NCBI GenBank assembly: GCA_020630615.1
Contig: JAHDBA010000012.1
Span: forward strand, 1-64,000
Reading direction: 5' to 3'
Source: Myxococcota bacterium
GTDB taxonomy: Bacteria; Myxococcota; UBA727; JAHDBA01
Length of the DNA: 64,000 bases
In this document: positions 2,944 through 42,390 of the stretch, piece by piece
Layout: each line of letters begins with the position of its first letter
Numbering within the stretch: position 1 is the stretch's first letter
The notes under the pieces: generated by a model
Told to the model about the DNA's origin: nothing
Database searches by the model: none
The model's input: the letters and a program-made list of their open reading frames with translations, nothing else
Program-made: the position numbers and the translations under genes

Positions 2944-4874
2944 GGTTTGCGATGCACCCAGACTGGCGATGTCCAGGCGCGCTCTTGGATTGTTTTGGGG
3001 ACGTCTTCGCTACAACATGCGTGTTTCCAATCGCTTCGAGACTCGTTTGAACAATCAATTGCATTCTCAACACAAAGGTGCTGGGTCCAGCGGCAGGAGG
3101 GTTCTTCAAGGATACGCAAATAAATGGCAAAATCATCTTGATCGGTGGGTAAAGGAATCTCCACTTGCTCGAAGACATCATGTAGCGTGACATCGGGTGT
3201 TAAGCATGAACTCAAATCTGGCCTCGTTACCGATTTTCGCTCAAAAACTCTAGAAACACGTTCAAGGACGAGTCCATTTCGTGAACCAATTCGTATGACA
3301 TCAATCGCGGCAATGTTACGCCCCTTCTCTGCGCCATAGTCAGGAGCGGCATGGACAGTGGCATGGAGCGTCTTTGCATTCTTTGCTACTTCAAGAGTTT
3401 GCCCCATTGGGGTGCCGCCTTCTTGAGCACGTTGAAGACCATCGACAGTCGACAATAAAGGCAAAGGTGATGGTGCCCAATAGACCCGAGGGGCAATACG
3501 AGGCCCGCTGGTTGCAAACGATTCTCTTCGTTTGAGTGCACCAAAAATGCGGGCTCTGGAGTTCTCCTCTGCCCACACGCCTGTTAACCCGCCCGGGCTA
3601 TATTCAATCCGGTCAGGGACGCGCAATCCATTTTCCGAAGGGAATTTCCCCGCACCGCCATGGCCTTGAAAACCTTCTTCTTCAACTCCACCGGCTTTAC
3701 CAAAATGCGTGTCTGTCCCACCGACAAAGCCTAGCTTAAAGGGGTTCGGGCTTTCTTCTTTGTTTGTATTTTCACGCAGCCCTTTCTCTTGCAGCCCAAG
3801 ACCTAATTTCAGCGCGTGACGCACAAAGCTTTGTGGGTTTGGCTTGTCTCTCAGCAATACCGAGAACTGCCCGCTAAAACTTTGATAGGGTAACGCTTCA
3901 AACTCGCACGCTTCATCAACCTGTCCGGGCTGGAAGTAGCATTCCGATGCGCCTTTGTGTTGAATGATTTCAACGAGGCGTTCACGCTTCGCTCGCAGTT
4001 TGAGGTCGTGTCGGGTCGTTGTCTCTGGGAGCATAAACATGCGACCGTCTGAGAGATTGCTGTTATGCGGAATCGAAAGATAGTCGCAGCCTTCATCGAC
4101 GCGACACGTTGAGTCGAGTTTGTTGAGAAGTTCTTCAGGTGTTGAAGCATCGACATAGGACACAGGTTCACGCGGGACGTCAGGTGTCGCGAAAACAACA
4201 TTGCGATGGAGGTTTTCGCCTTGCGGGCTACCTGTCCATTCGTATGCAACAAAAGTGGTGAACGTACATTCGGAACTTTCATCGTTGTAGGTCTGTGCAG
4301 CCGAACGAATGTCGCGCCAGGGATAATAACTCGCAAAAAGACAATTGGCGCCATCTCTACCACAAAAACCAAAGCGTTCTGGATGTTCGGAGCTCAAATA
4401 GGTCGAATTAAAAAGAAAGAAGGCAGCCTTGGGGTTTTTCCTTAAGAGTTGGCAAAGATTGTTTTGGTAGGCAGGTCTACCTTTTTGGTTGCATAAGAGT
4501 ACCTCGCCTAGAAACTCAGCATGGTCTGTTACTGCGGCAAAATCGATGGGGCGCTTCAGCTGGCTCCTTCGGGTTGAAACACCGTCACTAGTGTAGGGCG
4601 GTAGGGAAATCGCTTCACCTCGACCAAAAGCATAAGCATCCGCTGGCGAAATACGAACGCCTTGGGTAGATGCATCAAGGGAGTATCGTGTGTGAACATG
4701 AAGATCGCCGAAGAAGACTTGTTTGGTTTTTGTATAATGCTTGCATTGCCCGGTAGAAGCTTGTGTGGGGGCTGGCAAATGGTCTTCTTGGGTTGCATAC
4801 ACACCACTCGAAAACGACACGAGCACCAGGCAGCATAGCCTAAAGACTTTTGACGTTGCGTGTGCCCAACTCAT
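2940..4874 (-). CDS. DUF3604 family secreted protein (PHP-like metal site)
   Basis: Large exported protein of the DUF3604 family, which has no firmly assigned reaction. After a signal peptide ending near SGVYA, the mature N terminus carries FFGDLHVHTRYSLDA, the HxH start of a PHP-phosphoesterase-like metal site. Further matches are AVTDHAEFLGE and, late in the chain, FVGGTDTHFGKAG, all typical of the family. The ATG at 4874 places the signal peptide well; an upstream in-frame GTG at 4913 would add 13 residues. Neither start has a convincing ribosome site. The stop overlaps the start of the next small ORF, and the HupE-like gene follows, so the three probably form one transcript. Confidence 0.88.
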   Translation of the reverse strand: MSWAHATSKVFRLCCLVLVSFSSGVYATQEDHLPAPTQASTGQCKHYTKTKQVFFGDLHVHTRYSLDASTQGVRISPADAYAFGRGEAISLPPYTSDGVSTRRSQLKRPIDFAAVTDHAEFLGEVLLCNQKGRPAYQNNLCQLLRKNPKAAFFLFNSTYLSSEHPERFGFCGRDGANCLFASYYPWRDIRSAAQTYNDESSECTFTTFVAYEWTGSPQGENLHRNVVFATPDVPREPVSYVDASTPEELLNKLDSTCRVDEGCDYLSIPHNSNLSDGRMFMLPETTTRHDLKLRAKRERLVEIIQHKGASECYFQPGQVDEACEFEALPYQSFSGQFSVLLRDKPNPQSFVRHALKLGLGLQEKGLRENTNKEESPNPFKLGFVGGTDTHFGKAGGVEEEGFQGHGGAGKFPSENGLRVPDRIEYSPGGLTGVWAEENSRARIFGALKRRESFATSGPRIAPRVYWAPSPLPLLSTVDGLQRAQEGGTPMGQTLEVAKNAKTLHATVHAAPDYGAEKGRNIAAIDVIRIGSRNGLVLERVSRVFERKSVTRPDLSSCLTPDVTLHDVFEQVEIPLPTDQDDFAIYLRILEEPSCRWTQHLCVENAIDCSNESRSDWKHACCSEDVPKTIQERAWTSPVWVHRKP

Positions 4875-4981: not shown

Positions 4982-5959
4982 TTAGAAGCGTTCGCGCATC
5001 GCTTCTAGGGTTTTCCGATCTTCCATCGAGATTGATTCTGGAACGTGTAGCATGAGCTCCACAATCATATTGCCGGCTCTGCCTTTCTTGGGGGCAAAGC
5101 CCTTGCCTTTGAAGCGAAAGCGTTTTCCACCCGAAGTCGATGCCGGGATTGTAATCTTAATACGGCCGCGGGGGGTCTCTACGTATTCCTCGTTGCCGAG
5201 GATTGCATCGAGAACTCCGACGTAGTGCCGGACAATAATATCGCGATCGTCGAGGGTGATGTTGGATGGACACTTGGCTTGAATATTGAGCAGGATGTCG
5301 CCAGCAGCACCACCGCCAATGCCAGGGCTGCCTTGGCCTTTGAGTCGAATACGGGAGCCCACCGTTGTTTCTGGTGGGATCTTGACTTCAAGGCGTTTAA
5401 CGTCCACGCGTCGTCCGCCCTGTGGGTCGTGTATTGGCAGACGAAAGTTGAGCGTTTTGATTGCGCCTTGCAAAAGATCGGCAAGGTTGAGCTCCAAATC
5501 GATGGTGTGGTCTTCACCGCGTTTTCCTTTTGGGCGGCCTTGGTGATCGTAGGCGTTTTGATAGCCTGCGTTAAAACCTTGGTTACGAGGCCCCCCCCCA
5601 CCAAAGATACTTTCAAAGAAGTCGGAGAAGCCCGACACCGAAGTATTGCCGCCTTGAAACCCGCTTTGCCCACCAAATCCTGAGCGAAAATTGAAATCTA
5701 CACCCTGCCACCCTGGTGGTGGACGAAAGTCTTGCCCCGCACGAAAACCTGCCCCAAGTTGATCGTAGCGTTGTCGCGCGTCGGGCTCGCCAAGCACCTG
5801 GTAAGCTTCATTAATTTCTTTAAAGCGCTCTTCGGCACCTGAATCCGTATTGTGATCGGGATGATACTTGAGTGAAAGCTTGCGAAATGCCTTTTTGATC
5901 TCGTGTTGAGAGGCACTTCGCTCGACACCTAGAGTCTTGTAATAATCACGGTATTGCAC
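4982..5959 (-). CDS. J-domain co-chaperone, CbpA-type DnaJ
   Basis: A DnaJ-class co-chaperone of about 325 residues that would stimulate a DnaK ATPase. The N-terminal J domain has YYKTLGV and the HPD motif (KYHPDHN). A Gly/Phe-rich linker follows (repeated GFGG, GFQGG), then the C-terminal beta-rich substrate-binding domains. The CxxCxGxG zinc repeats are missing, which marks the CbpA type rather than classical DnaJ. The GTG at 5959 gives the family-typical start [12 protein letters not shown]; a TTG at 5980 would add seven residues. The Gly-rich linker is encoded over a run of nine C (5591-5599 on the plus strand), a slippage-prone tract, but the frame is intact. Confidence 0.9.
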
Positions 5960-7868: not shown

Positions 7869-9508
7869 CCATCGACATTGTAATATTCATCACTTATGCA
7901 CTGGTTGCATTCGGGCTTGCATTCTGGTCGCGTCGACAGTCTAACGAGAGTCATGAAAATTCGAGCACGACACAAGAGTCAGAAGGAGTTGTACAAACCC
8001 GGGAGCTCTTCCTTGGTGGGCGCAACCTTGGATGGTTTGCCGCGGGCACATCCATGGTCGCAACAACTTTCGCGGCGGATACACCGATTTGGGTTGCGGG
8101 TGTTGTCGCCGCAAAAGGAATCGCAGCAAACTGGGTGTGGTGGAATGTCGCCATTGCACACGTGATTGCAGCGGTCTGGTTTAGTCGTCGCTGGCAGCGT
8201 TCAGGAGTCGTCACCGACGCTGAACTCACAGAGCTTCGATACAGTGGGCCGTGGGCATTACGACTTCGTGTCTTTAAGGCACTTTTCTTTGGTGTGATCT
8301 TAAATGTAATGACGATGGCTTGGGTCATTAAAGCGATGGTCAAAATCTCGGAAGGTCTTTTCCCCAGCATCAACTCGCTAGGGGTCGTGACGCTATGTGT
8401 TCTTTTTTCCGCAACCTACACCAGTGTCGGTGGATTCCGGAGCGTCGTGCGTACCGACGGGATTCAATTCGCACTTGGGATGTCGGGCTCTTTGGCGCTT
8501 GCATTCTTTTGTGTTCGGCACTTGAGCACAACCGAGCAAAGCTTTCTGATCAAGGTTGAATCGGCGCTCCGCGAAAGCGGTCATCCATCTGAACTTTGGT
8601 TTGAGTTTTTCCCGACACATGAACAATCGGGTCTCACGTGGATCTATTTCTGTGTGTTGATGAGTGTGGGTTGGTGGCGCTATGCAGAAGGCAACGGCTA
8701 CATGGTTCAACGCCTAAGTGCATGTCGAAGCCCAGAAGATGCGGACAAGGCAAGCCTATGGTTTGCCATTGCACACAATGCACTACGCCCATGGCCGTGG
8801 ATCGTAGTGGGACTCGGGCTCATTGTTTTATATCCCAATCTTGAGGACAAAGAATTGGGGTATTCATTGGCCATGGCAGAGTTGTTACCCGCAGGCTGGC
8901 TCGGTGTCGCTTCGGTGTCCTTGGTTGCCGCTTTCATGTCAACGATGGACACCCATACGAACTGGGGTGCATCGTATTTGATCAATGATATTGTGCTTCG
9001 TGTGCTCAAACCGGATGCCTCCAATCGGCAGATCAAATTTTTGTCTCGCGTCTTCATCTTCGCATTGGCGACCGGTGCGGGGCTCGCATCAACCCAAATT
9101 GATTCCATCGCAGAGGTCTGGAAAATCTTCTTGGCAATAGGCGCAGGGCTGGGTTCTGTCAGTGCAATACGTTGGTTTTGGCGTCGAGTGAATGTTTTTG
9201 CGGAGTTGGGTGCGATGGTCGTAACCTTGGTTCTCACACTGGCCCTGCAAATTTTGCAAGGGTATGCGATCGTCAAATTTGAAGCGTGGCAGACAATGCT
9301 GCTGATTGCGCTTGGCTCGCTTGTGACTTGGGTCAGTTTGAGTCTTACGTTGCCAGGTGAGAGCGAAGAACATTGGGAACGCTTTCAGCAGCGGACCCGA
9401 GATGAACGCACCATTTCGACTCGCTTTGCCAAAACTCTCTTCGGTATTATAGTCGTTTACGTTTCGATTTTTGCAATCGGTAGCCTGACGCTTAAGCTTC
9501 TCAGTTGA
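7859..9508 (+). CDS. SSF-family sodium:solute symporter
   Basis: A 549-residue integral membrane transporter of the SSF family, expected to couple sodium entry to uptake of an unidentified solute. About 13 hydrophobic segments can be traced, beginning with one at residues 4-23. The region ELFLGGRNLGWFAAGTSMVATTFAADTP is the family's helix 1 signature, with the broken helix and small residues used for sodium binding. The C terminus ends in a final helix (FGIIVVYVSIFAIG). The ATG lies in the repeat shared with sequence downstream of the lipoprotein gene, and it has no strong ribosome site. Substrate cannot be assigned from sequence. Confidence 0.9.
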   Translation: MFSTIDIVIFITYALVAFGLAFWSRRQSNESHENSSTTQESEGVVQTRELFLGGRNLGWFAAGTSMVATTFAADTPIWVAGVVAAKGIAANWVWWNVAIAHVIAAVWFSRRWQRSGVVTDAELTELRYSGPWALRLRVFKALFFGVILNVMTMAWVIKAMVKISEGLFPSINSLGVVTLCVLFSATYTSVGGFRSVVRTDGIQFALGMSGSLALAFFCVRHLSTTEQSFLIKVESALRESGHPSELWFEFFPTHEQSGLTWIYFCVLMSVGWWRYAEGNGYMVQRLSACRSPEDADKASLWFAIAHNALRPWPWIVVGLGLIVLYPNLEDKELGYSLAMAELLPAGWLGVASVSLVAAFMSTMDTHTNWGASYLINDIVLRVLKPDASNRQIKFLSRVFIFALATGAGLASTQIDSIAEVWKIFLAIGAGLGSVSAIRWFWRRVNVFAELGAMVVTLVLTLALQILQGYAIVKFEAWQTMLLIALGSLVTWVSLSLTLPGESEEHWERFQQRTRDERTISTRFAKTLFGIIVVYVSIFAIGSLTLKLLS

Positions 9509-13494: not shown

Positions 13495-14667
13495 GTGGCA
13501 AATGCGAACTCAACCGGATCAAAACTCACAGAGGCTATCGTAGAGTCTTTACTCAAAGGGGGGAAGACGCGCGAGTGCGACCATGTTCTGGTGATTGGCT
13601 CTCGTGAGTTACCCAAGCTAAAACCACTGAAAACGAAATTGATTTATGCTTCGTCGGACGCCCATGCCGCCGGTGCCTTTCGAGGGAAGGGCTATCAGGT
13701 CGTCGATATTCCCGAATATATTGGCCGTCGCAGCGATCGAGTGAAAACTGCTATTTTGAGTGCGATGTCTCAGGGCTTGGTTCAAAACGGTGAGACCTTG
13801 CTTTGTGCACTGGGTAAAAAAGAGAATTTAGCTGTCGATACGGTGATGTTGGTTCCGGCCAAAAATTTTGGTTCGGGCTCAAGAAAAGGTGTGCTTGCCT
13901 CGTTGCCCGAAGAGATGCCTGCGGAGCTCTTTGAAGTTTGTGTTCAAGTTGCTTTGCGACTTGCGCGAGAGGGCTATGAAGGTCGAGCGTTGGGTTTGAT
14001 GATTATCTTGGGGGATTCAACGACAGTGATGGAGCATTCGCGCCCCCTCATGATGAACCCCTTTCAGGGGTATGCAGAAAGCCAGCGTAACATTTTTGAT
14101 ATGCCGGTTCGTGAGGCCATCCGCGCCTTCGCAATGTTGGATGGCGCCTTCATTGTTCGAAATGACGGAACCGTCTTGGCGGCAGGTCGCCATATTCAAG
14201 TTGGCGAACAAAAGCTCAATGTACCCTTTGGCTTGGGGGCTCGACACACTGCGGCAGCCGCAGCAACGAGTGAAAGCAATGCCATTGCAATCGCCGTCAG
14301 TCAGTCGACGGGAACCGTTCGTGTTTTTCGCGGCGGTTCGATTGCGTTAGAGCTTGAGCCGAGTGGTCGTCGTGAAAACTTTGCGCCCAAGGAGAGTGTT
14401 CCGGGTGAGCACGTGGTGAAGCAAACACGAAAGGCTCTGAAGAAAACATCGTCACAGAAATCGAAGGGGACAAGTGCAGCGCTCAAGAAAAAAAGCACTC
14501 CTTCAAAAGTCAAGAAGAAGGCGGGAAAACGAGTCGCCAAAAAAGCTGTAAAAAAAGCGACATCGAAAGCTGAGGGGCAGCAAGCATCGAAGAAAAGAAG
14601 TACACCACCACGAGATTCAGTCGCGACTGCATCGAAAACGCGCCGGATCAAAAGTTCAAAAAAGTAA
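13495..14667 (+). CDS. Diadenylate cyclase-domain protein with histone-H1-like tail
   Basis: The central part (about residues 190-300) is a DisA_N-type diadenylate cyclase domain that would make c-di-AMP from two ATP. DGAFIV (about 216) is the DGA motif, and FGLGARHTAAAA is the RHR-type motif with Thr in place of the second Arg, followed by the typical VSQSTGTVRVF. The N-terminal ~190 residues form an accessory domain I do not recognise. From about 305 the chain becomes a Lys/Ala/Ser-rich tail with KKAGKR, KKAVKKA and KTRRIKSSKK, resembling histone H1 or AlgP tails and likely to bind nucleic acid. The only start is GTG at 13495, directly after a stop, with a poor ribosome site. Confidence 0.85.
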   Translation: MANANSTGSKLTEAIVESLLKGGKTRECDHVLVIGSRELPKLKPLKTKLIYASSDAHAAGAFRGKGYQVVDIPEYIGRRSDRVKTAILSAMSQGLVQNGETLLCALGKKENLAVDTVMLVPAKNFGSGSRKGVLASLPEEMPAELFEVCVQVALRLAREGYEGRALGLMIILGDSTTVMEHSRPLMMNPFQGYAESQRNIFDMPVREAIRAFAMLDGAFIVRNDGTVLAAGRHIQVGEQKLNVPFGLGARHTAAAAATSESNAIAIAVSQSTGTVRVFRGGSIALELEPSGRRENFAPKESVPGEHVVKQTRKALKKTSSQKSKGTSAALKKKSTPSKVKKKAGKRVAKKAVKKATSKAEGQQASKKRSTPPRDSVATASKTRRIKSSKK

Positions 14668-27820: not shown

Positions 27821-27946
27821 ATGAACGATGAAATAGACAAAAAACTACGGAAGTTGATAGGTTTAGCCCTATGGTTACAACCGTTCAACCAACGCGCTAC
27901 TTGGCGCGTTTTTTATTGCCAAAGTTATGGGGGCTGCGAAAAATGA
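27821..27946 (+). CDS. Possible 41-residue peptide
   Basis: A short frame starting at an ATG with CGGAG seven bases upstream, reading MNDEIDKKLRKLIGLALWL and ending CQSYGGCEK. There is one amphipathic or hydrophobic helix and a Cys-x6-Cys end. A terminator-like hairpin lies inside the frame, which argues against full translation; the region might instead be a small RNA. The gap between tcdA and the membrane-protein array is otherwise empty. Confidence 0.25.
   Translation: MNDEIDKKLRKLIGLALWLQPFNQRATWRVFYCQSYGGCEK
27891..27914 (+). terminator. Rho-independent terminator-like hairpin
   Basis: Perfect 7-bp stem AACGCGC/GCGCGTT with a 6-base loop, followed directly by a run of Ts on the plus strand (six counting the stem end). 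No annotated plus-strand gene ends here, since both neighbours are on the minus strand. It would therefore terminate an unannotated short plus-strand transcript starting after about 27750. Confidence 0.6.
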
Positions 27947-28001: not shown

Positions 28002-28655
28002 CTACTCAGAAGCGGATTGAGTATCAGGGCTTTTAGAGTTTTGGACCGGAGTACTCGGTACTGCGACAGGTGACGTATCGCTTGAACCGAGCGCACGCAA
28101 ATGCAGGCCTTCGGCTTTTTGAACTCCTAGAAATGTGGTCGCCTCTTTCAGCACGCTTTCAAGCTCTAGGGAAAAATATAAAAAAGGAGCACTTCTTAGC
28201 ATCAAAACCCGATTGATGGCGGTGGTCTGTGAGCTTACGATTTGCTTAGTAGCTAAAAATGCAACTGCACTTGCAAGTAAGATTGTAAGCCATTCAGGAA
28301 CGTGAAAGACATGTCGCAAGGTTGCAAGTATAAAGTAGGTAACGAATACACCACCAAATACCCAAACGAAGTCTTTGGCTGCGTTCAATGAGAGAAGTCT
28401 GAGACTCTTAATTTCTTTACGCATTTCAACATCGATAGGGGGCACTTTATGGGGCAATGGGTGCTCTTCTCGGCGCCACTCTTTTGGGACTCTTTTACCG
28501 TGAAAAACTTGTGCGTCATGAAAAGCTTGTGCAAATCGCTTAGCAATATTTTTGGGTAACTTGTGCATATTGACTGCGACGTTTTCGAGCTGAAGTATTT
28601 GCTCTTTAGTGAGCGCTGTCGCTTCTTTTCCGCGTGTGCGTTTTGCAAAAAACAT
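28002..28655 (-). CDS. Tandem paralogue 3 of an unrecognised membrane-protein family
   Basis: A 217-residue protein. The N-terminal ~60 residues are helical and charged, with the shared pattern KEQILQLENVAVNMHKLPKN. Two hydrophobic segments follow (about 95-117 and 122-140), then PFLYFSLELESVLKEATTF. The C-terminal tail is Ser/Pro-rich and contains SPVAVPSTP. It is closest to the middle paralogue; its ATG lies 2 bp after that gene's stop. Both termini would face the cytosol if the hairpin is a simple pair. No catalytic motif or known domain is recognised. It is the last gene of a three-gene unit. Confidence 0.75.
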   Translation of the reverse strand: MFFAKRTRGKEATALTKEQILQLENVAVNMHKLPKNIAKRFAQAFHDAQVFHGKRVPKEWRREEHPLPHKVPPIDVEMRKEIKSLRLLSLNAAKDFVWVFGGVFVTYFILATLRHVFHVPEWLTILLASAVAFLATKQIVSSQTTAINRVLMLRSAPFLYFSLELESVLKEATTFLGVQKAEGLHLRALGSSDTSPVAVPSTPVQNSKSPDTQSASE

Positions 28656-28657
28656 TT

Positions 28658-29308
28658 TTAGGTATTGAATCTTTCGCTGGCATTGCTCGAGTGGGCCGGC
28701 GTTTTTAATGGGGTTGAGGGTACTGCGACAGGGGAGTGGTTGTTGCTACCCGAATTTTTCGCGACCGATATAGGCACTCTCGGGCTTTTAATTGCAGTTG
28801 TAGCTTCTGTAATCAGTGATTCAAGTTCAGGCGACATACGAAGGAAGGGGTAACGTCGCAACTGCATAGCCAACTTAATTGCATTCGAATTACTTCGGGT
28901 GATAATCACCATCATAAGATATGTTTGCAGTGCAATTTGGAGTGGCAATGTCATCAATGACGAAATATTCGTAAAAAGGACGAAAGCAAGTAACATCGCG
29001 TTAAATAGAAGTATTAAGACGATCAAGTGCCAGTGCAGTGCTAAGAGTTTGAGTTTGGTTGCTTTCAGTGATTGGACCTCTCGAACCATTTCATCGTCAA
29101 CTTCTGGCAGTATCTCTGGTGTCGGGTGTGCTTGACGCGAGAACTTTTTATTTATCCATCTGCCATGAAATAGGCATGACGATACAAAGGTCTTCACGAA
29201 CTTTTTGCGTAGTTTCTTTGGGAGCTTATCAAGGTTGAATGCAATATTTTCAAGCTCGAGAATTTGCTCGGCTGTAAGAGGAATCGCTTTGGGTTTTTTG
29301 AAAAACAT
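28658..29308 (-). CDS. Tandem paralogue 2 of an unrecognised membrane-protein family
   Basis: A 216-residue protein with the same plan as its neighbours: helical start with AEQILELENIAFNLDKLPKKLRKKF, a Pro-rich link (HPTPEILPE), two hydrophobic segments (about 93-115 and 118-140), then LRRYPFLRMSPELESLITEAT, and a Ser/Pro tail with HSPVAVPSTP. The shared segments lie at matching positions in all three proteins, so they are duplicated genes rather than chance. It sits 6 bp after paralogue 1 and 2 bp before paralogue 3. The function is unknown, and I know of no named family with this layout. Confidence 0.75.
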   Translation of the reverse strand: MFFKKPKAIPLTAEQILELENIAFNLDKLPKKLRKKFVKTFVSSCLFHGRWINKKFSRQAHPTPEILPEVDDEMVREVQSLKATKLKLLALHWHLIVLILLFNAMLLAFVLFTNISSLMTLPLQIALQTYLMMVIITRSNSNAIKLAMQLRRYPFLRMSPELESLITEATTAIKSPRVPISVAKNSGSNNHSPVAVPSTPLKTPAHSSNASERFNT

Positions 29309-29314
29309 GAATAT

Positions 29315-29905
29315 CTACTTTTTTTCTAACTCGTGGCTAACAACATGCGGCACTGCGACCGGGTCACTTGAGAGTGTTCCTGCGCCCCGTGATTGACCGT
29401 CACCGACTCGACCACCATTGCGCTTCCATAATTCTATAGCTCCAAGTGCAGGGAGGAGTGACGGGTGCATTTTCAAATAAGGCGTCTTGCGAAGTCTTGA
29501 AATGATTGTGATTGCACCATGCTCTTTTAAATGTCTCCCGAAAAATAATGATAAGGCAGTAACCAAAGATGTCATTGTTATGAGAAGATAATCAGGAAGC
29601 ACCGTTATCATAAGGGCGTATAACACAGGCAGAAGCAATAGAATCGAAAACGAGTAGTCCAGATTTATTTTTGTGTGTCCATATCGCCGAACATAACTTC
29701 GACCAAAAGTAGTGGGGTGTCTAAACCGAGTAGGCTTTTGCGAATCGGGAAATATCGTCCAAGTTTTACGGAGTCGAATAGCCTTAATGAATCTGTTCCG
29801 CAGCTCTTTCGGTAGATCTTGAAGATGCGAGCCGGCATCTTCTAAGCGTAGTATGAGTTCATCATCGATGCCGGTCTTTTTCGCAAAAAGTGAACGCCAT
29901 GCCAT
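29315..29905 (-). CDS. Tandem paralogue 1 of an unrecognised membrane-protein family
   Basis: A 196-residue, most diverged member and first gene of the three. It keeps ELILRLEDAGSHLQDLPKELRNRF, a basic stretch, two hydrophobic segments (about 84-103 and 107-122), LRKTPYLKMHPSLLPAL and a tail ending DPVAVPHVV. A strong AGAGAGG lies before the ATG. The promoter must be in the ~135-bp gap shared with divergent prfB. Base composition looks somewhat more AT-rich than the flanking housekeeping genes, which fits acquired DNA but was not computed. Confidence 0.72.
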   Translation of the reverse strand: MAWRSLFAKKTGIDDELILRLEDAGSHLQDLPKELRNRFIKAIRLRKTWTIFPDSQKPTRFRHPTTFGRSYVRRYGHTKINLDYSFSILLLLPVLYALMITVLPDYLLITMTSLVTALSLFFGRHLKEHGAITIISRLRKTPYLKMHPSLLPALGAIELWKRNGGRVGDGQSRGAGTLSSDPVAVPHVVSHELEKK

Positions 29906-29991: not shown

Positions 29992-30000
29992 GGGGGGGGG
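29992..30000. repeat. Run of nine G in a divergent promoter region
   Basis: A homopolymer G9, followed by CCC, in the gap between prfB and the membrane-protein array, about 40 bp before the prfB start. Such tracts slip during replication and can alter promoter spacing, and they are also frequent assembly error sites. Confidence 0.6.
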
Positions 30001-32857: not shown

Positions 32858-34363
32858 TTGGGGGTGACTGTGGCGAACGATGACTTCGAAGGAATATCAA
32901 CGCAAGTTTTTCAGGACGTATTGGCGGACTTGGATCAAGGCTCAGGACAAACCTTTGACGAAGATTCACTTGTGGGCGATGTAAAAACACACAATCAAGA
33001 CTGGCTTTATCGACATGACGATCGCGTCCATGGCCCAGTGAGTGCCTCTGTTCTTGCTTCCTTTTTAGACGAAGGGCGATTCGCAGATGATCTCAGCATT
33101 GCGAGACCCAACGGGACTTGGCGTTTTGTGAGCGATGTCCCCCAGTTTCACAAAGTTGTGAATACGCGCAAGGCTCGCCTCTCAGCACTCGCAGCAGAGC
33201 GAAGCCAACGTCGGAAAAATAATTTCTTTGCACTCGTTCGCGGAATTCTAGCCGCTGCAATACTCGCATTGGGCGGACTCTTGGGATTTGTGGGTGTGAA
33301 CACGATTTTAGAATCAAAACTTTTGAATGACAAAGAGATTTGGTTGGCTGAAGTCCCTGCATTGCCAAGGGTTGCCCCCAAACCAGCCGAGACCATAAAG
33401 CCCATTCAAAGGGTCGAGGACCTTGATTCGAATCGAGGCGCGCTTGCACAGAGCCCGAAGGGTCGAGAGCTCTTGGCCATGAGCAAAACCGGTCAGCAAC
33501 TTTTGGAGACACAAGACGGCACAAAGGAAGAAGTAAGGGCAAATACCTTGAGGACTATCGACTCGCCTCAACCAGGCACACACGATCGTAGTGGAGAAGA
33601 AGAACTAAGCGCAGACGACGCAACACAAAAGGTCCTTGAAGAAGCCGCGCGCGAAGCTGAGGCGCGTCGGAATAATTCTGCAAGTGTGGACGGGGGACAA
33701 GCAAAAAGCGTGGGGTCTGGTGATGTGAAAATTGTAAAAACAAATCTCCAGGAGAAACCAAAGACTCCAGCATCAAAAGTGCGATCTTCAAAAGGGAAAG
33801 TCTCAAAAGCGAAGGCGTCGAAGGCGAAGTCTTCACTCGCTACGAGTACACCTTCGAAGACGGTGATCAAGGAAACACCCGAGAAGAGAAGCGACACTGT
33901 TGCGCAGAGCGCAAAGGCAAGTACGATTTCAGGTCGTGCACCCGACTCGGAGAAAGGCGAGAACTCAAAAAGCGATGTGGAGGAAAAATCGCCAAAGGAA
34001 GCGGAGACCAAAACCGTCGTTGTGAAGAAGATTGAAGCGAAAAAGGTAGAACCCAAGAAAGATGTGATTCTCGATGAACTCAAATCATCGGACATGAAAA
34101 AAGGTTTTATGAAGTCGGCACGCTATGTGAAAAAATGTATTGAGCGCCAAATGGAACAAGACGAAGAAGTACCCGAGAGGATTACCATTTCATTTTGTGT
34201 GTCCAATGACGGTAAGCCGACGGGTGTTTCGATACTTGAACGTGCTGCTCAGGACAGCCCATTGGGTAAATGCATTCGAGCAGCAGTTCGCAAGAAAGCG
34301 CGTTGGCCCAAATATCGGGGTGAAGAGCAGTGTCCTGATTATCCAATTCAGATTGGCCAGTAG
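32858..34363 (+). CDS. AgmX/PglI-like TonB-type protein with GYF_2-like domain
   Basis: A 501-residue membrane protein. The N-terminal cytosolic part (about 48-95) is GYF_2-like: WLYRHDDRVHGPVSASVL and RPNGTWRFVSD. One membrane helix lies near 128-150. A long Lys/Ala/Ser/Glu-rich, probably extended region spans about 160-410, with repeated KAKASKAK units. The C-terminal ~90 residues (MKKGFMKSARYVKKCIERQM, ITISFCVSNDGKPTGVSIL, ARWPKY) match the TonB-like C domain of AgmX/PglI proteins of myxobacterial gliding machinery. Such proteins reach across the periplasm and work with TolQ/TolR-type motors; a set of those is at the right end of this window. The start is uncertain by a few codons. Confidence 0.82.
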   Translation: MGVTVANDDFEGISTQVFQDVLADLDQGSGQTFDEDSLVGDVKTHNQDWLYRHDDRVHGPVSASVLASFLDEGRFADDLSIARPNGTWRFVSDVPQFHKVVNTRKARLSALAAERSQRRKNNFFALVRGILAAAILALGGLLGFVGVNTILESKLLNDKEIWLAEVPALPRVAPKPAETIKPIQRVEDLDSNRGALAQSPKGRELLAMSKTGQQLLETQDGTKEEVRANTLRTIDSPQPGTHDRSGEEELSADDATQKVLEEAAREAEARRNNSASVDGGQAKSVGSGDVKIVKTNLQEKPKTPASKVRSSKGKVSKAKASKAKSSLATSTPSKTVIKETPEKRSDTVAQSAKASTISGRAPDSEKGENSKSDVEEKSPKEAETKTVVVKKIEAKKVEPKKDVILDELKSSDMKKGFMKSARYVKKCIERQMEQDEEVPERITISFCVSNDGKPTGVSILERAAQDSPLGKCIRAAVRKKARWPKYRGEEQCPDYPIQIGQ

Positions 34364-36299: not shown

Positions 36300-39038
36300 T
36301 CACGGATATTGAGCATTTAGTGCTGCGCGTACCCGAGGAGACGACTCAAAACGCATCGCATGTGTACGCTGGTCCTGAAGTGCATTTGGCTGAAAGGTAT
36401 TCATTGTACGCCAAGCCAATTCTCGAACGTTTGGACTTCGGTGTTCGAGTAATTCGACAAAGAGTGCCTCGGGGAGCTCAATGCCGGCGTCTTGATAGGC
36501 ATATAGGGTGCACAAGAGCGTCCAGTGATCTCCAAACTTCAAGACATGTACAATCCACCCTTCATACACATCTCCTCTTAACTCGGGCGGAAGACTTTCT
36601 TCTCGCTCTGAATGCTCGGGACGACCGGTCAATTTCAAAGACGCTTCAACCCTATTGAAATCCTCTCTGGGAAGAAGGTGTGCAATCGCCTCCAATGCAT
36701 TTTGAAGGTCTCGACGGGAGTCTTGAACCAGAGAAGACATGATGTCTTTGAGAAAAGGTTGTGGTTTTGCATTGCGAATGTTCGTGAAAAGATGATCACG
36801 GAGGTGTTTCATATGGCGTGCTTTGCCTTCGACCCAAAGATTTTGAATGTCAGTACTTTTTGGGTGGACCTCTAAAGTGCTTAGAATGTCGTGTGCTCTT
36901 TTTAAGGGCTGAAACTCTAAACGGATTCTTTCTTCGCCCTCACTCAGAAAGTTTGTGCTTTCAGCTCCCTCTTTGGACTCTTCATAAAGGCGCTCAAATA
37001 AAATGGCTGCTTCATAGCGAAGTCGTAGACTTCGTGACGTCGTTAAGGTCCTAAGCAAATTCAAAAGCTCGATATCGCTAAGACCTTGTCCATTTCTATT
37101 CTGAGTTCTTCGCAAATGTTCAAAGGTGTAGTTGAGGAGTCGCACCCGGATATCAAGCCGTTCATCTTTTCGAAGAATTATCTTGGGAAGGACTTGCGCG
37201 AGAGACTCTGCGTTAAATTGGTGTAAGGCCTGCGTCGCTGCACCGGCCAAGCGTGGATCGACAAGCATATGCAAGATTGGAACGAGATGTGAGATGTCGA
37301 GTGTTGTTTGGGTGTCTGTTAAACGACGAACATCGTCCTCTAAAACAACTTCTTCATGAAGCGCCACCCATAATTGCGTAGTGCCGTAAACTTTTCGACT
37401 CTGGTGACGGCTTCGCTCTGATTTTAATGTGCCATCCGGTGTTTCGTTTTTAGTGAAGTGAAAGCGTTTTTGGCGCTGCATTTGTTGCTGAACAATTTCT
37501 CTCGCATGTGTTTTTGCAAAGCTCTCGATTGGCTGTGGGAGTCTCATGTCACGATTTTGCGCTAAAATTTCAACCAAGAATCCCCGTGCCTCAGGCGTAC
37601 CTCTTTTGAGTAATTCGAAGAGGTCGTCTTCACTAAAAGTATTGACCTTTGCGGGGTGGGTACGTTTTGAAAGGTCGTCCTTCTGAACGCTTGCAATCAA
37701 TGCGCTGAGATAACTCGAGCGGGCCCGGTACAGAATGGTGCAGAGGCTTAACGAGGCCAAAGTCACGATCGTCAAAAGTACCTTGGGCCCCACCATCTGA
37801 AACAATGAAAGCAGCGAAAGGACAACACCCGAGAGTCCGATTGCAAAGGGCTTAACGACACCATCGATAGCTGCTTTGGCTCGCCCTCGGCGTATGTCCG
37901 AGAGTGGTGCATAGAGCAATTGCACGGTGGTATCGAATATCGAGTAGCGAAATACATTTTCGTTTATTTTGTTCGCGAAGGCTGAAGCGGAAAACCACGA
38001 GAGGGTAAGAAATGCGGGACCAAGTAAAAGGGGAGCCAGCCCTATCATCATACCCATACCGAGCAAAAAGGATGAAGGTAGGATCACAAGTGTTCCGGCG
38101 ACGCCCAATTTTTTGGACAAGGGCGTTGCAATAAAAAGCTGAATCAAAGCTGCAATCATCGCGCAGCCTGTAAAGAGCAAGCCGAGGAGCCAGGCCAAGT
38201 CTTCCGCGTGATTTCCATGGGTTGGGTAAAGCTCCTGAAGCGCAACTTTAAAATGGAAATCGATAAAGGGCATCGTGAAGGCGGTGAGCCCTACAATGGC
38301 GGCAACAACCCGAATGTGAGGTGTCCAGAATATTTGTAGGCGTCGGGTTGAGTTCTGAGGCGAAGCGCAAACCTTTTGTTTGCGGACACGAAAGAGTACT
38401 TGGATTAGGGTTGCGCGTCGGTTTCGACCAATGGTGGTATTCAAGAGTATAAAAAAGACGAGGTCGATTGCGAGGATGCCCAAGGCACCTTCAATGCCAA
38501 AGTGTTTTGCACTCAGTCCTGCTAAACCTCCTCCCACAATGCCGGCGACGATGCCGCCCAAACTAATTCGAGGGAAAAGTGATTTTCCTTCAAAAGAAGA
38601 AAACAGATCGGTTATCATCGTCCAGCCGTGCAAGATCAAGATTGCCCCGCTGATTTCAACCCATAGGTAAAGTGCGATTGGTGCCGCCTGAGCCCCTGAG
38701 AAAAGAAAAGGCGTTAAAGCCACGAGGGTAAGGAGCAAGAGGATTGAAAGGATATTCCCAAGAATATCACGCCGGATCCGTGATCCCATCCAGGCATAGA
38801 CCAAGGCAGGTCCGGGTATTAAGATGGCAGTGGCCAAATACATTCTCGATAGAAAACTTGCCTCAATCATGGACAAAAAGAGCGCATCGCGAATGACTCG
38901 ACCGGCAACAAGTAGGAATACCGCTGAGAAAATAAATGCACCCAGCATCAAGGTGTTCAACTTCTCATGCGCAAAGACCGATCCTTTCCGAATCCGTGTC
39001 TTTTTCGTTGGGTCATGTTCTGTGCGTTGGCCTTGCAA
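36300..39038 (-). CDS. ATP/ADP-translocase-like membrane protein with helical-repeat tail
   Basis: A 912-residue protein. The N-terminal ~430 residues contain about twelve hydrophobic segments in the style of nucleotide-translocase/MFS proteins (VFLLVAGRVIRDALFLSM, then GWTMITDLFSSFEGKSLFPRISLGG, and NENVFRYSIFDTTVQLLYAPL). The C-terminal ~480 residues are soluble, Arg/Leu-rich and HEAT-like (for example VPILHMLVDPRLAGAATQALHQF). The TTG start at 39038 is supported by AGGAG five bases away. Relatives carry a cNMP-binding domain at the end; here that domain is a separate downstream gene. Transport of nucleotides is not shown for such free-living bacterial members. Confidence 0.8.
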   Translation of the reverse strand: MQGQRTEHDPTKKTRIRKGSVFAHEKLNTLMLGAFIFSAVFLLVAGRVIRDALFLSMIEASFLSRMYLATAILIPGPALVYAWMGSRIRRDILGNILSILLLLTLVALTPFLFSGAQAAPIALYLWVEISGAILILHGWTMITDLFSSFEGKSLFPRISLGGIVAGIVGGGLAGLSAKHFGIEGALGILAIDLVFFILLNTTIGRNRRATLIQVLFRVRKQKVCASPQNSTRRLQIFWTPHIRVVAAIVGLTAFTMPFIDFHFKVALQELYPTHGNHAEDLAWLLGLLFTGCAMIAALIQLFIATPLSKKLGVAGTLVILPSSFLLGMGMMIGLAPLLLGPAFLTLSWFSASAFANKINENVFRYSIFDTTVQLLYAPLSDIRRGRAKAAIDGVVKPFAIGLSGVVLSLLSLFQMVGPKVLLTIVTLASLSLCTILYRARSSYLSALIASVQKDDLSKRTHPAKVNTFSEDDLFELLKRGTPEARGFLVEILAQNRDMRLPQPIESFAKTHAREIVQQQMQRQKRFHFTKNETPDGTLKSERSRHQSRKVYGTTQLWVALHEEVVLEDDVRRLTDTQTTLDISHLVPILHMLVDPRLAGAATQALHQFNAESLAQVLPKIILRKDERLDIRVRLLNYTFEHLRRTQNRNGQGLSDIELLNLLRTLTTSRSLRLRYEAAILFERLYEESKEGAESTNFLSEGEERIRLEFQPLKRAHDILSTLEVHPKSTDIQNLWVEGKARHMKHLRDHLFTNIRNAKPQPFLKDIMSSLVQDSRRDLQNALEAIAHLLPREDFNRVEASLKLTGRPEHSEREESLPPELRGDVYEGWIVHVLKFGDHWTLLCTLYAYQDAGIELPEALFVELLEHRSPNVRELAWRTMNTFQPNALQDQRTHAMRFESSPRVRAALNAQYP

Positions 39039-40446: not shown

Positions 40447-42390
40447 TTAGGAACGATCCGCTTCAATGCGTTGGAGCAGGGACGCAAAGTATTCACGAAG
40501 TGCAGGGTTCACACCAAAACGCACTTCTTGACGAATCGGCTGAAGCATTCTCTCCCCAAGGCCTTCAAGAAGGGCTTCTTTCGCCTTCTGCACTTCATCG
40601 GAGCTCCCCGAGTGAATGACATCAATCAGGAACTCCGCAGCGCGTGCCGTTCCGATTCGAGCACTTGCGCGCAAAAGTGTGTGTCGGATGTCAACAGCAC
40701 TTTCATTTTCATAAAGTTCAATGAGTGGATTGAGCATATCCGTTCGACTGTGGGTTAGACATAGTTTGAGTGTGTCCTCACGAAGTGCGTCATCATGGAG
40801 GAGATTGGAAAGTGCGCGAACCACAGAGCGCCCTGTCTCTTCAACCACATTGATGTTCGGGCTCTTCATGACACCTTCCAAAATCTGAAAAGCCTCCTTT
40901 GAAGTAATTCGTTTTGTATTTCGTAGTACCGCGTCTGTTAAATGGGAGTGCTCGACCTTGGTTAACGCAATTCGCCATTCAAAGGGCATTTCCAAAGAAA
41001 TAGCGTTGGCGGTACTGGGCTCCCTATCCTTTTCGGTTTTTTTGGGGGCATCGCTCTGCGTATTGGGCTGAGTCCTGTCCTTATTTTTTGAGTCGCGGAC
41101 ACGTGAACATTCAAGTGCGCAAAGGACAATTAATGCAAAGCGACGGTTCGCACGGAATACATTTTGATAATCACCAAGCATCTGCAAGCACGTATCTTCC
41201 ACATCATGCTTGGATTCATGTGCGATAAGCCAGTCTCTCACTCGAGGCACATGTGTTGTCGTTGAAGAGAAAAATGCGGGAAGCGCACGTTGGCGTTTCA
41301 AAAGTTCAAGGTCGTCGATACGATCTTCAAGCTCTGCCGCGAGTTCTTGATAGGAATCAAATTTATGTGAAAGCGCATCGACACTGAGCAGAAATTCGTA
41401 GCATTGATAGGCAGGTTGCCAGGCCCCAACATTGAGATATGTTCTCGCCGCGGCGGTCATGCATTGCTCGACCAAGTGGGCGCGAGCAGGATCGGATGCC
41501 TGATCGTGCCCGGACTTCTTCCATGCTTCGGCTGCGAGGTGAAAAAAGTAAGGGTAAAAGTTAAAGGCGTTCTTTTCAGCATAGCGTGCATTTTCATCGA
41601 GGACTTGGGCACGTGCATACTCTTCGTTTTGACGTGCGCATCCATCGGAAAAGCAGGCGTACCAACGCAGCGTCTCATAACGACGCTTTTGAGCGTCAGA
41701 CGCACGTATTGCATTTGTAAAACCTTCCGCGAAAAGCTCATAACGCCCGAGGAGTTCTCCAAGCTCGGCGAGCGCCAAATAGCATAACTTCGCAGCATCG
41801 TTTTGACCCTGACGTGTGAGTTCGTAACCGCAGAGTTCAATCGAACGAATCACACGGGCCACATCTTCAGTCGTCGATTCTTCGGACTCGATGCGAAGGG
41901 TCACGAGCGCAACATGTGAGAAAATGGCATAGAGTTGGGCGTTCACATCCAATTGCCGTGACAGTTGTGGTTTTTGAAACTCAAGTCTGCGTTCACTAAG
42001 TTGCTCCAACATCACGAAATGTTTTGTGGCTTGAGAAGTGTCGCCTCGGTCCCATGCGAGGTAGGCGGCACGGGCATAGGACTTGCTTTTGATAAAAGAG
42101 CGCAAGGCCTTTTCATGAAAACCTTTTCGTAGATAGATATCCCCAAGCGTACCTGCCGCGCCCGCCGCCTCATAGGTTGCTACGATTTTTTCTGGGTTTT
42201 GAACCGAGTAGTCATGAATATAGGCTTGCACCAATGGGTGACTGGAACCGAGCTCGTCAAGGATTGCATTGAGATTGTCGAGGTACGTTGTCTCCGGGAG
42301 ATGCAGTGCCACAAGATCGTCCAAGAGCTTGCTTGGGACAAACTCAAGCACATCACGCAAAACTTGGGTCATGCTCCCCGGAATCTTCAT
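40447..42390 (-). CDS. TPR/HEAT-like helical repeat protein
   Basis: A 647-residue soluble protein with no signal peptide. The first ~370 residues contain TPR-like helix pairs (GTLGDIYLRKGFHEKALRSF, KSYARAAYLAWDRGDTSQA). A central charged low-complexity stretch lies near 450-475. The last ~170 residues are HEAT-like (TLLRASARIGTARAAEFLIDVIHS, ending EYFASLLQRIEADRS). The ATG at 42390 has AAGGTCAGG upstream. No enzyme motif is visible; it is probably a cytosolic scaffold. It is divergent from the gene that leads to the Mla-type transporter. Confidence 0.65.
   Translation of the reverse strand: MKIPGSMTQVLRDVLEFVPSKLLDDLVALHLPETTYLDNLNAILDELGSSHPLVQAYIHDYSVQNPEKIVATYEAAGAAGTLGDIYLRKGFHEKALRSFIKSKSYARAAYLAWDRGDTSQATKHFVMLEQLSERRLEFQKPQLSRQLDVNAQLYAIFSHVALVTLRIESEESTTEDVARVIRSIELCGYELTRQGQNDAAKLCYLALAELGELLGRYELFAEGFTNAIRASDAQKRRYETLRWYACFSDGCARQNEEYARAQVLDENARYAEKNAFNFYPYFFHLAAEAWKKSGHDQASDPARAHLVEQCMTAAARTYLNVGAWQPAYQCYEFLLSVDALSHKFDSYQELAAELEDRIDDLELLKRQRALPAFFSSTTTHVPRVRDWLIAHESKHDVEDTCLQMLGDYQNVFRANRRFALIVLCALECSRVRDSKNKDRTQPNTQSDAPKKTEKDREPSTANAISLEMPFEWRIALTKVEHSHLTDAVLRNTKRITSKEAFQILEGVMKSPNINVVEETGRSVVRALSNLLHDDALREDTLKLCLTHSRTDMLNPLIELYENESAVDIRHTLLRASARIGTARAAEFLIDVIHSGSSDEVQKAKEALLEGLGERMLQPIRQEVRFGVNPALREYFASLLQRIEADRS

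Follow-up and report, generated by a model that had tools for sequence, protein, structure and literature searches.

Three tandem paralogous genes for probable membrane proteins sharing a PVAVP tail motif in a Myxococcota bacterium

The SLATT domain group is an example of two-helix membrane proteins with cytoplasmic tails, and small two-segment membrane proteins in general are common effectors. Its plan, a small hydrophobic hairpin flanked by helices, resembles that of the three proteins described here, although the comparison was made only through Pfam and PADLOC scans, in which the trio had no match at cut-off. A second point of comparison is provided by proteins processed by sortases or PEP-CTERM-type systems, as such processing requires a motif ahead of a C-terminal membrane helix, whereas the motif shared by the trio lies after its membrane segments. 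A third is provided by ECF-type sigma factors, in which region 4, together with the extension that follows it, resembled the N-terminus of the trio over 60 columns; the trio differed in having membrane segments and in having neither region 2 nor the sigma group's RARIK residues. The locus lies in a window of 64,000 nucleotides, the whole stretch of DNA that was analysed, and comprises three genes:

28002-28655, minus strand, P1 (P0001, 217 aa), last gene of the array; open reading frame with fitting codon usage
28658-29308, minus strand, P2 (P0002, 216 aa), middle gene; open reading frame, 36% identity with P1 over 211 aa (BLASTP)
29315-29905, minus strand, P3 (P0003, 196 aa), first gene and most divergent copy; open reading frame with fitting codon usage, homologous to P1 and P2

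The original prediction of three minus-strand paralogues of 196-217 aa, separated by gaps of 2 and 6 bp, was confirmed. P1, P2 and P3 are coding and homologous: measured against codon usage in the rest of the window's genes, the own frame of each was the best fit of six, and the local-alignment z-scores of the three pairs were 53, 9.6 and 14, with none of 500 shuffles reaching the observed score. The two lower z-scores belonged to P3 against P1 and P2, with which it shared 25-28% identity in alignments and gave weak BLASTP matches. P1 and P2 had 75 residues in common, and the four-fold degenerate sites of shared residues were identical at 8 of 32 positions, which is the level of saturation and indicated that the P1/P2 duplication was old and that the shared residues were kept by selection. 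The retention of so many identities at this level of synonymous agreement argues for constraint on the copies at the protein level. The three genes are related by old duplications, and the family was confined to this locus, as no fourth copy was found in its own assembly (2.83 Mb, 93% complete). The genes are read in the order P3, P2, P1, with 6 bp between the first two and 2 bp between the last two, and this spacing makes a single transcript likely; promoter prediction for the trio yielded no candidate that stood out.

The N-terminal motif ExILxLE...LPK...F, as originally described, was carried by all three proteins. Of the segment proposed to follow the membrane region, LR..P[FY]L was common to P1, P2 and P3, but SxELESxxxEAT was present in P1 and P2 only, P3 having MHPSLLPALGAIE in its place. 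The invariant residues of the trio were concentrated in the N-terminal helix, in LR..P[FY]L and in PVAVP. The claim of two membrane segments was upheld in part, as the hydrophobic segments of all three proteins were compatible with two membrane helices, but P2 and P3 showed a single long stretch without two clean peaks. AlphaFold models, built from the three-member alignment, were of low confidence for both P1 (mean pLDDT 53.8, pTM 0.29) and P2 (mean pLDDT 55.7, pTM 0.23); within that limit they agreed on helices at approximately 13-28 and 31-51, long helices across the hydrophobic region, one short helix at approximately 160-176 and a disordered tail. The membrane region was modelled as a helical hairpin in P1 and as one continuous helix in P2, so that the two models imply different numbers of membrane passes. 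The proteins are small and probably membrane-anchored. A Foldseek search of the PDB with the low-confidence P1 model returned nothing meaningful (best E 0.88).

The trio matched no family at curated cut-offs in Pfam, NCBIfam, PHROGs or PADLOC and had no relative in a sequence search of the PDB, in agreement with the earlier statement that no named family has this layout. The best Pfam match reached E=0.044 and 14.6 bits, where the cut-off is 29.7, and the other libraries did no better; PHROGs gave nothing beyond an equally weak hit (E=0.044) on a family without known function. A full-length profile search of the family, the order, the class and the phylum, the last covering 195 genomes, returned the trio itself only, the weak extra hits being rejected as chance matches of the membrane segments. 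Searches by tblastn with P1 and P2 gave nothing better than E of 3 to 10 in phages and no hit in plasmids. Scans by pattern and tblastn found a relative neither in GTDB contigs nor in IMG/VR contigs, meaning none at the sensitivity of these searches; both scans rely on peptide patterns whose conservation was judged from one to three sequences, and distant relatives may therefore be missed. These results supported an unrecognised family, which is most likely specific to its lineage and of an ordinary, unstudied sort. Effectors of the SLATT type were rejected, as the trio had neither a match to the family profiles nor a nucleotide-sensing partner, its neighbours being housekeeping genes.

The tail motif was encoded at three positions:

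28057-28070, minus strand, PVAVP codons of P1, CCTGTCGCAGTACC, a 14-mer identical in P2
28719-28732, minus strand, PVAVP codons of P2, CCTGTCGCAGTACC
29349-29362, minus strand, PVAVP codons of P3, CCGGTCGCAGTGCC, with 2 mismatches to the 14-mer of P1 and P2

The presence of PVAVP in all three tails was confirmed, and its conservation exceeds the shuffled-tail expectation, as none of 200,000 shuffled sets gave any 5-mer common to all three tails. A full-text literature search for PVAVP found no paper. It is plausible that PVAVP is a short binding or processing motif, as had been proposed. Processing of the sortase or PEP-CTERM type was rejected because PVAVP is not followed by the C-terminal membrane helix and basic residues that mark such substrates. 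Proline-rich peptides are ligands of GYF domains, and a gene on the plus strand of the window (32858-34363) encodes a protein that combines a weak GYF-type domain at its N-terminus with a C-terminus resembling AgmX/GltJ (TonB-like); this protein is a conceivable partner of the PVAVP tails.

Building on the observed genes, their homology, the shared motifs and PVAVP, we infer a lineage-restricted, co-expressed inner-membrane complex with a PVAVP docking motif, a composite reading to which we would assign a probability of roughly 40%. Two old tandem duplications, in which P3 would have diverged first and P1 and P2 later, may have been kept as a three-gene operon. Each protein would have a cytoplasmic N-terminal helical segment and a hydrophobic hairpin passing through the membrane, so that both ends would be cytoplasmic, and the hairpin would be followed by a short conserved helix and a disordered Ser/Pro tail. 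P1, P2 and P3 would assemble through their N-terminal helices into a single complex, and a partner common to them would dock at PVAVP, a short site in the exposed tail. Counting against the complex were the lack of an orthologue beyond the trio, the poor models, the failure to find a fixed partner gene and the lack of a standout promoter. In addition, PVAVP appeared to be conserved partly at the DNA level, which is more than a purely protein-level docking motif needs. If the family is real beyond its own genome, it would represent one more lineage-specific paralogous membrane family with a possible docking motif. Under-sampled bacteria commonly have families of this kind, and the trio alone changes no open question.

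The likeness at the DNA level bears on an alternative that we regard as unlikely though still credible, namely that PVAVP is the translation of a DNA or RNA feature, such as a gene-conversion tract or a binding site within the genes, and that the tails themselves are unconstrained. The motif is written CCT GTC GCA GTA CCG in P1, CCT GTC GCA GTA CCC in P2 and CCG GTC GCA GTG CCG in P3. Within PVAVP, 9 of 15 pairwise comparisons of synonymous third positions agreed, whereas the figure for four-fold sites elsewhere was 13 of 72 (Fisher p=0.0018, from a post hoc test on five codons with pairs that are not independent), while at least 9/15 agreement was reached in 1.7% of random codon draws, and P1 and P2 shared a 17-nt repeat with one mismatch. 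Because the test was post hoc and its pairs non-independent, the codon likeness was counted only as a hint of some contribution from a constraint on the nucleic acid or from a short tract of gene conversion. Against a feature of the nucleic acid, P3 differed at synonymous sites with the protein unchanged, and the degenerate PVAVP-coding pattern occurred at six sites genome-wide, three of them within the trio, which did not exceed the reversed control. The absence of genome-wide enrichment ruled out PVAVP as a dispersed element.

The resemblance to sigma factors arose from a profile of the N-terminal 80 residues of the trio, for which the top match in the order was region 4 of an ECF-type sigma factor, with E=9.8e-4 and 1.4e-3 per genome in two genomes. 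This sigma factor carries Pfam Sigma70_r2 and r4 and was present in 14 of the 16 genomes of the order, including the trio's own (contig C16, 35594-36253). In hhalign, the trio N-terminus aligned with region 4 and its extension (a profile of 14 orthologues) end-to-end with one gap, at a score of 31.3 and 83%, compared with at most 22 among 600 column-shuffled decoys. Such a match would fit a trio N-terminus that is a displaced, degenerate ECF sigma region 4 with its extension, tethered to the membrane, the proteins being membrane-bound regulators or decoys of that sigma factor. However, a natural control in the same search, glyQ (glycyl-tRNA synthetase alpha), which is surely a chance match, reached 27.2 and 63%, and the C-terminal profile of the trio matched an aroA-like protein equally well (E=1.45e-3 per genome); its aroA-like and CheB-like hits, named by eye from the translations, were due to chance. 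Searched back against the trio's own genome, the 14-member profile returned the sigma factor and not the trio at E<=10, no Sigma70_r2 hit was obtained in P1-P3, and, besides the missing RARIK residues, a proline interrupts the helix. With natural controls nearly as good and a reciprocal search that failed, the link was not accepted, and we retain it as a doubtful reading of low probability. A more elaborate version, in which a membrane family derived from the C-terminus of an ECF sigma factor forms three co-expressed paralogues that capture a PVAVP partner and tie transcription control to the membrane, is scarcely probable. The trio would gain more significance only if this weak resemblance were confirmed.

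The sigma factor locus had features of its own. At L086, the sigma factor (3442-4263, plus strand) carries a conserved PxPRWxR C-terminal extension, and a further gene (7998-8774, plus strand) encodes a Lys/Arg/Ala-rich repeat protein with KKATRKKVAKKKTTKKK units, a histone H1-like composition and no NCBIfam hit. In the trio's own genome, the sigma gene is flanked by a TIGR04551 family gene on one side and by serine-hydrolase-like and LD-carboxypeptidase-like genes on the other.

It is also improbable that the trio are chance-level orphans, duplicated homologous genes whose shared selected function goes no further than insertion into the membrane. The lack of a relative in any search and of a confident fold in AlphaFold would suit such genes, but motifs kept despite saturated synonymous sites argue for selection on the proteins.

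The original prediction had also placed the array in a gap-rich stretch consistent with accessory DNA, which was not borne out by its surroundings. The spacers flanking the trio measured 281 bp on the thiF side and 135 bp on the prfB side, and neighbours with family hits were mostly housekeeping genes: split transketolase, enoyl-CoA hydratase and ThiF-like genes on the former side, prfB, PilZ and truA on the latter, and lnt, trpS, a SurA-like gene, uvrC and recR further off. The G+C content of the trio was nevertheless lower (43-45%, compared with 49%), the sole hint of a different origin. A terminator-like hairpin was found nearby, at 27891-27910, as described earlier, but it is terminator-like on the plus strand only and so does not end the minus-strand transcript of the trio. 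Membrane-perturbing effectors of the defence or toxin-antitoxin type, triggered by a partner, are highly unlikely, for although the small two-segment plan and a G+C content below that of the flanks would fit them, PADLOC gave no match and PHROGs only the weak one mentioned above, the ThiF-like and prfB flanks offered no adjoining sensor, nuclease or antitoxin gene, and three old tandem paralogues would be an unusual effector layout.

The G9 tract noted near the array was located at 29992-30000, between the trio and prfB; only one further homopolymer run in the window, at 5591, reached the limits of the search. Rfam and tRNA scans of the window returned nothing. In the nearest relative (G001), prfB is preceded by three tandem genes that were named by eye as thioredoxin-like (L032, 4825-6945, plus strand), another tandem triplication at the same position; as these genes occupy the spot, the trio was rejected as a syntenic, highly diverged gene set in that genome.

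Elsewhere in the window, a diadenylate cyclase is encoded at 13495-14667 (plus strand), its best NCBIfam match being neither CdaA nor DisA but the archaeal-type DacZ (E=4.9e-40, below cut-off). The 912-aa product of a gene at 36300-39038 (minus strand) weakly resembles NTP/NDP exchange transporters of the TLC family, and a HEAT-repeat protein is encoded near it at 40447-42390 (minus strand). The order contains genomes of only 0.3-0.5 Mb (G005 and G007), and a relative of nucleotide transporters may therefore be of interest.
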